Source: Collinsella tanakaei YIT 12063 (GTDB lineage: Bacteria > Actinomycetota > Coriobacteriia > Coriobacteriales > Coriobacteriaceae). From it: a DNA stretch of 64,000 nt. A model generated the notes under the pieces. It was not told where the DNA came from. It ran no database searches and saw only the letters and a program-made list of their open reading frames with translations. Positions 29,583 through 40,017 of this stretch are shown piece by piece. The stretch spans positions 20,388-84,387 of the forward strand of contig NZ_JH126473.1 of the NCBI RefSeq assembly GCF_000225705.1, in the 5' to 3' direction. The first letter of the stretch is position 1; every line of letters starts with the position of its first letter. The position numbers and the translations under genes are program-made.

Positions 29583-29622
29583 ATGCCCCTTGTACCTAAT
29601 GGTACAAGGGGCATTACTTTTG
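29583..29622 (+). terminator. Terminator of the U32 gene
   Basis: ATGCCCCTTGTACC (29583-29596) pairs exactly with 29601-29614 around a TAAT loop, followed by TACTTTTG. Confidence 0.85.
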
Positions 29623-29684
29623 CCAATCCAGTTCAAAACCGGCAACAATGCGCGCCGTCGCCCATAGCCGCCCATTTCCGACCC

Positions 29685-29960
29685 GGCACCACTTTGTAAA
29701 CTCGATACCCAAACGTGCATCCCAACCGTTTTGCTCGCACGCTTGGGCACCCAGATTAGATTTGGGTGCCCAAGCGTTTCTATCAAAGTACGATTACGTT
29801 CATCGTGGCACCCGAAAAGAAGATGGATGCCCGTTTGAACATTCGCAGAGCATTCGAAATACACCCGGGCACCAAAATGAAAACTGGGCGCCAAAACGGA
29901 TACAGCGAGAGAATCTTTTATTCGCATGGGAATCCAATGTCAGCTTCGAAGCCCAAACGT
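29685..29960. repeat. 61-bp-period array of dyad elements, locus A
   Basis: GGCACC recurs at 29685, 29746, 29807 and 29868, exactly 61 bases apart, with a decayed fifth unit at 29929. Each unit reads roughly GGGCACCNA, 8-10 variable bases, TGGGNGCCCAAACG, then unrelated sequence. The copy at 29739-29777 is a perfect 15-bp dyad with a 9-base loop. The copy near 29798-29840 has a different outer stem (GTTCA/TGAAC) that still pairs. The same family forms locus B at 38288-38700. The period is not a multiple of three, and no gene is visible. Confidence 0.75.
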
Positions 29961-30054
29961 ACAAACTGTTGAAGGCGCCAAATGACCCCTCACGTAAGTA
30001 GATGAAGTTGACTACAGGAACCATTAGCTAAACACGGGCAGCAAGACACGCGGG

Positions 30055-30094
30055 AAAATAAAAAGACCCCAGAGCCCTAAGGACTCCGGGGTCT
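30055..30094 (-). terminator. Terminator after rplX
   Basis: On the minus strand AGACCCCGGAGTCC pairs with GGGCTCTGGGGTCT and is followed by TTTTTATTTT. It ends the S10-type operon right after rplX, so rplE does not follow. Confidence 0.92.
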
Positions 30095-30117: not shown

Positions 30118-30441
30118 TTAGAACTTGTGGCCGCACTTCTTGCAGATGCGCAGCTTGGTCTTGTGGCCATCGAGCTCGCCGGCCTCGTGACCAACGCGAG
30201 TACGCTGACCACACTTGGGGCAAACGAGGTTTACGTTGGAGGCGTCGATCGCAGCCTCCTGCGAAACGATGCCACCCTGCTGGTTCTGCTGGTTGGGCTT
30301 GACGGCCTTCTTGACGATGGCGACGCCCTCGACAACGACCTTGCCCTCCTTGGGGAGCGCGCGCAGAACGATACCCTGCTTACCGCGATCCTTGCCGGAG
30401 AGCACCTCGACCTTGTCGCCCTTCTTAATGGACATAGACAT
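30118..30441 (-). CDS. rplX: 50S ribosomal protein L24
   Basis: A 107-residue early-assembly 23S rRNA-binding protein. It has the KOW motif ([17 protein letters not shown]) and a C-terminal zinc-ribbon-like set, [10 protein letters not shown] and RICKKCG, as in many Gram-positive L24 proteins. MSMSIKKGD starts at 30441 after GGGAGAG; the second Met at 30435 is an alternative. It lies 18 bases after rplN. It is the last gene of this operon, followed by a strong terminator instead of the usual rplE. Confidence 0.97.
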
Positions 30442-36934: not shown

Positions 36935-38086
36935 CTACTGGCACGCGCTCACGTAATCATCGTCCACAGTAATCTTGGCAACAGCCTGCGGATATTCCTT
37001 AACCACACGGCGCGCGAGCTCAGACCTTAGCTCGTCTGAGGAGAGCTGCATGTCTTCCGGGCGCAGGCAATCGAAAATAACGTTGGTATGCGTTGGACCG
37101 GGCACCGTGCGCAAGTCATGGATCGAGAGGCGCGGGTCGATTTCTTTTGCGATCGCATCGATACGGTTGCGCATATCTGTCACCGCGGGGTCATCGGTCA
37201 CGATGGGATCGTAATGCAGGGTTACGATAAGACCGTCGTCGTCCTTAAATGCTTGCTCGATGTTATCGAGGACGTCATGGCTGTCCATGGGGTTGGTCTC
37301 GGCGGCCATCTCCACGTGCGCGCTAGCGAATTGACGACCGGGACCATAGTCATGGACCATGAGATCATGGGTGCCCAGCACGCCGGGATAGCTCATGATT
37401 TTCGACCTGATGTGCGCCACAAGCTTGGGGTCCGGCGCCGAGCCAAGCAGCGGATCAACCGTGTCGCGAAGAAGCTCTACGCCGCTCCATGCGATATATG
37501 CCCCAACAGCGAGGCCCGCCCATGCATCGAGCTGGAGCGAGGTAACGCGTGCAACCACTGCTGAAAGAAGGACCGCACCGGTAGCGATGCAGTCGTTTGT
37601 TGAGTCTTGAGCGGTAGCGATAAGGGTTTCCGAGTCGATTTTGTTACCCAAAGAGCGGTTGAACGCAGCCATCCAGCACTTAACGAGGATAGACAGGGTT
37701 AGAACCGCCACCAACGCCAATGAGAATTCAACCTGCGTAGGATTGACGATCTTATCGATAGACGACTTGATAAGCTCAACTGCCACCAGCAGCACCAAGA
37801 CGGCGACCGCAAGGCCCGACAAGTACTCATAACGACCATGGCCGTAGGGATGCTCGGGGTCCGCCGGGCGACTTGCAAGCTTGAAGCCCAGCACGCTCAC
37901 GATGTTCGAAGAGGCGTCGGACAGGTTGTTGAGGGCATCGGCGACGATTGAAACTGACCCGCTCATTACGCCCACGGCGGCTTTTGCCGCGCACAGCAGA
38001 ACATTTGCCACGATACACACCATGCCCGCCAGCGCGCCCACCCGTGCTCGGTCTCCACCTGCGCGCTTAATAATCCATTCGCCCAT
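36935..38086 (-). CDS. Cation diffusion facilitator family transporter
   Basis: A membrane exporter of Zn2+, Fe2+, Mn2+ or similar ions driven by proton exchange. Residues to about 210 hold six transmembrane segments; SVSIVADALNNLSDASSNIV carries the metal-site aspartates on segment 2, and STNDCIATGAVLL the pair on segment 5. EHPYGHGRYEYLSGL is the family loop. The C-terminal domain (about 220-300) is the cytoplasmic CTD, extended by about 70 further residues. I chose ATG 38086 (MGEWIIKRAG) because a G-run sits 6 bases upstream; ATGs at 38092 and 38116 are possible. Metal specificity is not assigned. Confidence 0.88.
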   Translation of the reverse strand: MGEWIIKRAGGDRARVGALAGMVCIVANVLLCAAKAAVGVMSGSVSIVADALNNLSDASSNIVSVLGFKLASRPADPEHPYGHGRYEYLSGLAVAVLVLLVAVELIKSSIDKIVNPTQVEFSLALVAVLTLSILVKCWMAAFNRSLGNKIDSETLIATAQDSTNDCIATGAVLLSAVVARVTSLQLDAWAGLAVGAYIAWSGVELLRDTVDPLLGSAPDPKLVAHIRSKIMSYPGVLGTHDLMVHDYGPGRQFASAHVEMAAETNPMDSHDVLDNIEQAFKDDDGLIVTLHYDPIVTDDPAVTDMRNRIDAIAKEIDPRLSIHDLRTVPGPTHTNVIFDCLRPEDMQLSSDELRSELARRVVKEYPQAVAKITVDDDYVSACQ

Positions 38087-38287
38087 ATGCATCCCCCCCC
38101 GCTCTTGCTTAGACATGACTTTCGATTGTATTCCTCTTTATACTCCGCAGTGCAACGCATCGACCATCTGTTGCGGATTCACACGGTGGCGTCGCGGCGC
38201 TTTACCGGATGCCCGGCAATGCAGCTATGCAATGGAACCGGCGGCCTTGGATGTGCGAGCGCAAAGGCAGGCACGCTTGTACGTTGC

Positions 38288-38700
38288 GGCTCCCAGCTTG
38301 CACCCGGAAGCCAGCGCGTGCGATAGGACATCATTCCTGCGCCCGCCTGGGACCCCAGCGGGGTTTTGGGTGCCGCGGCGTGCATGCATACGCTCCTGGC
38401 TATACGAACGGGCACCAATTCCTGATTTGGGGACCCTTGCGTACATGGCGACAAAACGGTTTTGTCCGTTGGGCCACCCGGCTTCAAGCTAGGCGCCCCA
38501 ACGGACTTTACCCCAGGACTGAACATACGCAAGGGCACCTATACCGTCGATGGGTTCCCACCCGTAGCTATTAAGCCACCGCAAAGATACAAGTGGGCAC
38601 CAAACATGAAATTAGATTCCCATCCGTAACTATGGAGCTGGCTCCATTGGTCCGTACGGCACCCAATTAGAAACTGGGGACCCAAACGGACAGCATCATT
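38288..38700. repeat. 61-62-bp-period array of covarying dyad elements, locus B
   Basis: Dyad elements start at 38288, 38350, 38411, 38472, 38534, 38596 and 38658. Each spans about 41 bases and has an inner GGG/CCC pair and an outer stem. The outer stems differ but keep pairing: TACG/CGTA (38403-38406 with 38440-38443), TCCGTTGGG/CCCAACGGA (38465-38473 with 38497-38505), TACG/CGTA (38526-38529 with 38563-38566), TAC/GTA (38588-38590 with 38626-38628) and GTCCGT/ACGGAC (38650-38655 with 38686-38691). The family is the same as locus A (29685-29960). The rest of the gap 38087-38982 shows no gene. Confidence 0.78.
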
Positions 38701-38982: not shown

Positions 38983-40017
38983 ATGCCGCGTTCGCTTGAG
39001 ACCACACTTATAAAAAAGATTGCTGACGCATTCTCGAGCGGAAAGCTCTACACCCCCAAAACAGACTCCGAGCGCCAAGGGTTGAAGCGGCGCGTTCTCA
39101 AAGGGACGGTAGCGACACCCTATAAGGGCCTCTACGCACTTACGGAGCAATGGCTGGACATGGAGAAGCCGCAGCAATACAAGATGATTATCAAAACGCT
39201 CGCAGAGCTTTATCCCAACTGGGTTTTCTGCTCATTTTCAGCCGCCGTGCTGCACGGTCTCGAAGTTCCCTTTACAGAGATGAATCTGATTCACATCGCC
39301 GCGACTTGCAGCCGACGTACCAACGATTTGGTCTATCACCACATGAAGATCGATAGCCCTGAGAACGTGGACGGAGTGAAATGCGACTCCATAGACGGCA
39401 CCGTATTAGAATGCGTCCGAAAAAGCGACTTTAGATACGCCCTGGCGGTGGCAGATTCATCGCTGCGCTTATTGAGGCGCAATGCAAAGGAAATGATTGA
39501 GAGGATAGAGACCAAATGTAAGGGCAGACACGGCATAGCCTACGTCAAAGAGGTCTTTGGCCATGCCAATAGCAGGGCTGAAAACGGCGGGGAATCATAT
39601 GCGCGAGCAGTGATGATAGAGAACGGCGTTATGTTACCAAAGTTGCAGGTTGAACATTATGATCCAGTCACCAGGACAAAATACAGGGACGATTTTGAGT
39701 GGGAGCTCAAGACTGGAAACGTGGCTGGCGAGCTCGATGGTAGCAAAAAATATACCCTGATAGCCAAGAATCGAGGCGCAACAATCGAGCAGGTGCTTCT
39801 CGAAGAACGTCAACGCGAATCCAGGCTGAGAAACCAGGGGCTCAAGTTCGCGCGATTTACCTTTGACCAGATCCGGCAAGTCTCTTCTTTCATAGATATT
39901 CTCGATTCTTGCGGCATTCCAAGGATTGGAATAAATCCTCGTGCACCAAAGCCGCCGGCCAAGCGAAGAGAGATCGCATCTCGAACGTACAAACGAAAAA
40001 GCCAGAGACAAAGATAA
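38983..40017 (+). CDS. AbiEi-like protein with nuclease-like C-terminus
   Basis: A 344-residue cytoplasmic protein. The N-terminal 140 residues resemble the AbiEi-type winged helix (KIADAFSSGKLYTPKTD, then VFCSFSAAVLHGLEVP), known from type IV toxin-antitoxin antitoxins. The C-terminal part (FEWELKTGNVAGELDGSKKY) looks like the E-x-DG-x-K region of DUF559/Vsr-like endonuclease folds. Both assignments are from pattern memory. No toxin gene of the AbiEii type is adjacent. The ATG at 38983 follows GGGAGGGCGAT. It lies alone on the plus strand inside the gap between rpsJ and rplC, next to repeat array B. Confidence 0.7.
   Translation: MPRSLETTLIKKIADAFSSGKLYTPKTDSERQGLKRRVLKGTVATPYKGLYALTEQWLDMEKPQQYKMIIKTLAELYPNWVFCSFSAAVLHGLEVPFTEMNLIHIAATCSRRTNDLVYHHMKIDSPENVDGVKCDSIDGTVLECVRKSDFRYALAVADSSLRLLRRNAKEMIERIETKCKGRHGIAYVKEVFGHANSRAENGGESYARAVMIENGVMLPKLQVEHYDPVTRTKYRDDFEWELKTGNVAGELDGSKKYTLIAKNRGATIEQVLLEERQRESRLRNQGLKFARFTFDQIRQVSSFIDILDSCGIPRIGINPRAPKPPAKRREIASRTYKRKSQRQR

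Follow-up and report, generated by a model that had tools for sequence, protein, structure and literature searches.

The stretch of DNA analysed here (the window, 64,000 nucleotides of the Collinsella tanakaei YIT 12063 genome) contains two arrays of inverted-repeat units, referred to as locus A and locus B. Locus A sits between convergent genes (for a U32 peptidase and rplX), with a terminator-like hairpin on either side, and locus B is bordered by two divergent genes. In total, the window holds 12 units, five at locus A and seven at locus B, rather than the 11 counted in the initial annotation, and a whole-window covariance-model scan run with filters off returned none besides these 12. The features are given below with the E-values of the model scan, which are rough owing to a short calibration.

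29583..29614, unstranded (readable on both strands): terminator-like hairpin on one side of locus A
29671..29967, unstranded: locus A array, 5 units, axis spacing 61 exactly, 4 times
29671..29723, + strand: unit A0, E 2.6e-7
29732..29784, + strand: unit A1, E 1.2e-10, palindrome near-perfect (ACGCTTGGGCACCCAGATTAGATTTGGGTGCCCAAGCGT)
29793..29845, + strand: unit A2, E 6.5e-8, outer arms GTTCA/TGAAC
29854..29906, + strand: unit A3, E 2e-7
29915..29967, + strand: unit A4, E 7.9e-7
30064..30094, - strand: terminator-like hairpin closing the rplX operon, on the opposite flank of locus A and pointing to the array
36935..38116, - strand: cation diffusion facilitator (CDF) gene, divergent neighbour of locus B, outside the array
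38274..38696, unstranded: locus B array, 7 units, axis spacings 62, 61, 62, 61, 62, 62
38274..38326, - strand: unit B0, E 5.9e-8, GGCTCC..GGAAGCC
38336..38388, - strand: unit B1, E 3.5e-8
38397..38449, + strand: unit B2, E 7e-7, outer arms TACG/CGTA
38459..38511, + strand: unit B3, E 1.2e-9, GTCCGTTGGG/CCCAACGGAC
38520..38572, + strand: unit B4, E 7.8e-7
38582..38634, + strand: unit B5, E 6.9e-8
38644..38696, + strand: unit B6, E 5.7e-8, GTCCGT/ACGGAC
38983..40017, + strand: AbiEi-like gene, divergent neighbour of locus B, outside the array

All seven elements described at locus B by the initial annotation are present within 1 bp of the positions it gave (unit anchors 38288, 38349, 38410, 38471, 38533, 38595 and 38657). 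The outer stems (TACG/CGTA, TCCGTTGGG/CCCAACGGA, TACG/CGTA, TAC/GTA, GTCCGT/ACGGAC) had been read correctly, and the regular spacing of the dyads is borne out. The array at locus B is far above chance.

Arrays in the rest of the genome and their surroundings

A covariance model (R1) built from 10 units of the window only was run genome-wide and revealed four further arrays (C7:16812-17181, here C7a; C8:106913-107148; C1:649592-649828; C9:56045-56341), likewise with a period of 61-62 bp and with E-values down to ~3e-9. The genome total is six arrays with 31 units, at 4-7 units per array. Outside the six arrays, the model search of this genome gave no match at E <= 0.01, and the isolated matches of the R1 scan were two weak ones (E 0.05 and 0.15). 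Model R2 and the statistics reported below include units that R1 had found.

By inspection, the arrays of this genome are intergenic. As at locus A, a terminator-like hairpin is directed at arrays C7a and C1, bringing the number of arrays so placed to three of six; similar hairpins are visible by eye at the C8 and C9 arrays, where the terminator scan did not call them, and at locus B the scan shows no terminator-like site. No neighbour gene common to the six arrays was seen. The AbiEi-like protein next to locus B has weak PADLOC AbiEi matches and no Pfam or NCBIfam match. Two paralogues, on contig C2 (47% identity) and contig C3 (36%, with one internal TGA), have no array nearby, so the gene is probably not a partner of the array and was set aside as such. 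Downstream of the C8 array (L024:6807-8164), a gene encoding HTH and DUF3990 domains is followed by a small gene; the pair matches the PADLOC candidate defence models PDC-M13/M42A and PDC-M42B and has the look of a toxin-antitoxin system.

Half-sites, spacing and pairing of the arms

Each unit is an imperfect inverted repeat of ~46 bp formed by two bipartite half-sites, each comprising an outer box, a 4-bp linker and the inner box GGCACC (TGTACG-N4-GGCACC in short; consensus ATGTACGTTTGGGCACCCAG), inverted around a centre of ~7 bp. Positions G15 and C20 of the half-site are invariant in 62/62 arms and C9 is kept in 59/62, as compared with about half for the linker positions; the poorly conserved linker positions 11-13 pair in just 39-45% of units. 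The initial proposal of selection for a folded structure rather than for sequence is not supported, given these invariant positions and poorly paired linkers.

The axis-to-axis spacing across 25 intervals amounts to 61 bp in 16, 62 bp in eight and 72 bp in one, the latter corresponding to 61 bp plus one helical turn; the helical-phase argument is based on two modes and this single 72-bp step. Units are about as similar within arrays (identity 0.568) as between them (0.562), and the spacers approach randomness, with an identity of 0.33 inside arrays and 0.27 from one array to another, where 0.25 is expected. Since the period has been kept and the spacers randomised, we infer that spacing would be under selection at the DNA level; a spacing that holds at 61/62/72 bp although the spacers are saturated is more in keeping with DNA than with RNA.

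The period of 61 bp is also that of a type I-E CRISPR repeat plus spacer, as seen in viral contig L124, which might suggest a decayed CRISPR array. We consider this hardly credible: the units share only ~57% identity, the outer symmetric boxes would fall in (and reach into) the would-be spacers, and six dispersed arrays of such a kind would be un-CRISPR-like. We rejected a CRISPR relic on unit divergence, in agreement with the earlier annotation. Two IMG/VR viral contigs (L121, L124) do carry long type I-E-like CRISPR arrays with a 61-bp period (repeat ~GGACCATCCCCGCGTGGGCGGGGGCACC). The viral-contig matches that we inspected turned out to be terminators, direct repeats or CRISPR arrays. A single search for plasmids and another for phages also returned no match, and an origin from either was rejected.

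The covariation of the two arms, on which the initial annotation had relied, is statistically real, albeit weaker than it implied. Column shuffles gave an expectation of 37.8 +/- 5.2 cells changed on both sides, as compared with 64 observed. In whole-arm swaps, the 425 matching cells observed exceeded the expectation both globally (376 +/- 9) and within arrays (393 +/- 9, p = 0.0003). The extra arm-to-arm covariation in this genome is significant yet modest, and most of the arm pairing is accounted for by the conserved palindromic sequence and by array membership. Template switching is described (PMC8794818) as able to create and maintain compensatory hairpin changes and, in imperfect palindromes, to give symmetric changes without selection for structure. 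Most simply, the modest covariation reflects template-switch repair of palindromes together with site symmetry, with no RNA needed; apparent covariation inside a palindrome family is by itself not evidence for RNA.

The same data bear on the possibility that the arrays are transcribed into rows of hairpins with selection acting on base pairing, an explanation that we regard as unlikely. It would account for covariation in excess of both shuffles and arm swaps, for compensated outer arms (in B3, the clearest case at locus B, in A2 and in the first C9 unit) and for strong folding, the minus strand of locus B folding better than shuffles (z = -6.6), as expected of any palindrome array. On the other hand, an RNA is difficult to reconcile with the terminator-like hairpins on both sides of locus A, with the poor pairing of linkers, with a fixed helical-scale spacing that it would not lead one to expect, and with the lack of any consistent G-U versus A-C strand bias across the arrays. 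Moreover, Rfam gave 0 matches in the window at the gathering threshold, in line with the initial remark that no named element has this layout.

Distribution of the family

A search of the genus (43 genomes including this one, one genome being compared per species) found the array family in no other species; a single match in G020 proved to be a terminator-like hairpin and was set aside. When 396 genomes of the class were searched with a pattern, only one other carrier emerged, G269, which belongs to a different taxonomic family: the pattern matched six times here and 145 times in G269, and the reversed-pattern control 0 times in both. The 15 other genomes of the genus of G269 had zero or one pattern match each, a single match in G033 was an unrelated direct repeat, and a scan of GTDB genome contigs with a too narrow pattern gave three unrelated single matches only. 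The distribution of the arrays is patchy and lineage-restricted.

The G269 genome has more than 100 exact-core units, spread over many of its contigs, with a period of 71-73 bp, mostly 72, i.e. one turn longer than here. They fall into two subtypes with outer boxes TGGCCC and CTATnnG, respectively, and a common inner GGCACCC box. Heuristic ORF calling places the G269 arrays between 10 tandem, 7 convergent and 1 divergent gene pairs. Some units appear to be singletons, and different arrays partly share their spacers, as would suit a repeat family that has dispersed. In type 1, one arm mostly has GTTT as its linker and the opposite arm AAAC, which do not pair; at three of the four linker positions, pairing is seen in just 16-24% of units. 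In the arm-swap test, covariation is significant in this genome, weak in oriented G269 type-1 units (p = 0.004 globally, 0.06 within arrays) and absent from oriented type-2 units. The mostly unpaired type-1 linkers and the type-2 null result weigh most heavily against the idea that the family functions generally as an RNA hairpin.

Within the genome under study, contig C7 carries three of the six arrays within 42 kb, a clustering that a rough calculation by hand (about 0.02) suggests is not random, and the C8 array lies about 94 kb from dnaA. Together with the fixed period of the tandem palindromic sites, this might point to a centromere- or partition-like array of the sopC type with a putative ParB-like binder. 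Such a role seems very unlikely given the genome-wide spread of G269 units over many contigs, the lack of arrays in sister species and the lack of plasmid or phage matches in limited searches. In addition, a ParB site is much shorter than the palindromes described here.

In sister species, the region 3' of rplX contains other dyads; the array family was not found there. The spc ribosomal operon of the genus seems to stop after rplX (window 30118-30441, L127-L155), and rplE does not directly follow rplX in the loci inspected (the window and L127-L155). Within the first ~250 bases after rplX, sister-species loci L137-L149, L151 and L154 have small hairpins like ACTCATTGGGGACAGACTTAAATGAGT, whose stems differ around a GGGGACAG core, and GGGGAC motifs occur near some Y1 transposase genes of these species; the hairpins may be the RAYT-linked REPs of the genus. 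Two genomes (G005 and G015; L129 and L131) contain in the ~250 bases after rplX a longer inverted repeat, AAGTGTACGTTTTGGGG ... CCCCAAAACGTACACTT, with an arm resembling the TGTACGTTTGGG arm of the arrays and a much longer loop.

The distribution also bears on a reading in which the arrays are REP/BIME-type repeats without host function that spread in the past by means of a transposase or single-stranded DNA hairpin copying and now persist, template switching maintaining the symmetry of the arms and the period being a trace of array amplification. Intergenic positions near 3' ends, restriction to species and, in G269, high copy number with shared spacers would all be expected, as these match reported properties of REPs (PMC3733652). 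Nevertheless, the RAYT family PF01797 (Y1_Tnp) is absent from both this genome (G000) and G269 among the 10 genomes sampled and present in 8/8 sampled relatives. Furthermore, the arrays here show no breaks and keep an even spacing although their spacers are saturated, convincing singletons are lacking in this genome, and conservation is focused on specific positions. We consider this account possible, if doubtful; a RAYT-mobilised REPIN was rejected on the absence of RAYT. The only two of the 10 sampled genomes without any Y1 (IS200/RAYT-type) transposase are the two array genomes, which may be a coincidence.

A putative phased protein-DNA array and comparison with known systems

To our mind, the arrays are most likely a lineage-restricted, BIME-like variant made of protein-binding DNA. 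The specific reading that we favor, at a probability of about one half, is that of a phased DNA array to which a putative dimeric protein would bind. Such a protein would recognise the half-sites, and adjacent dimers would bind side by side in a fixed helical phase and cooperatively, so that a nucleoprotein array could form at intergenic sites in a manner comparable to that of gyrase on E. coli BIME-2; its role may be architectural or topological. This reading draws on spacing kept despite divergence, on the invariant positions, on the lack of convincing singletons here, on the period (71-73 bp) and placement of the G269 arrays, on the terminator-like hairpins at three of six arrays and on the BIME-2 gyrase precedent. 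Counted against it are the within-array arm covariation (p = 0.0003), which protein binding does not need, the minus-strand folding of locus B, and the singletons and shared spacers of G269.

A broader and doubtful extension, offered tentatively, would have these arrays represent an undescribed chromosomal system in which helically phased long palindromes are used by a putative lineage-specific protein to organise or mark the chromosome. If so, the outer box would have switched between lineages (TGTACG, TGGCCC, CTATnnG) with the inner GGCACC kept, and the period would have shifted by one helical turn.

Among known systems, the sopC repeats of plasmid F are tandem palindromic sites with a 43 bp period, sharing with the present arrays a fixed short period. 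Unlike sopC, the arrays described here are chromosomal and several in number, their palindromes are much longer and degenerate, and no linked par genes were seen. REPs resemble them in being intergenic with a preference for tandem and convergent genes, and REPINs in that two inverted halves make one larger dyad. A REP, however, is a stem-loop of 20-40 bp with an unpaired GTAG/CGTC tag (as defined in PMC3733652), as opposed to an inverted repeat of bipartite half-sites. This tag is absent from the consensus of this genome, where the outer box GTACG is paired, and in G269 type 1, GTGG occurs in just one of the two arms. REPINs likewise differ, as neither array genome has RAYT and convincing singlet units are lacking here. 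Thus, the arrays are REP/REPIN-like in behaviour, yet not classifiable as REP/REPIN in view of the missing unpaired tag and RAYT.

The closest parallel is with the BIME-2/REP elements of Enterobacteria, which are also intergenic tandem palindromes, enriched at 3' ends, lineage-restricted and hairpin-capable; BIME-2 arrays similarly have several tandem units at regular spacing (here 4-7 units at 61/62/72 bp) and bind DNA gyrase (PMC2817692). The present family departs from them in its strict period, in the absence of RAYT and in occurring solely as arrays in this genome. Interspersed palindromic arrays are known mostly from Proteobacteria and many are RAYT-linked (PMC3733652, PMC2817692). Here, we have a family from Coriobacteriia, in a host without RAYT, with spacing conserved though the sequence between units is randomised, and the long-standing question of whether such arrays are selfish leftovers or working DNA-protein platforms becomes testable.
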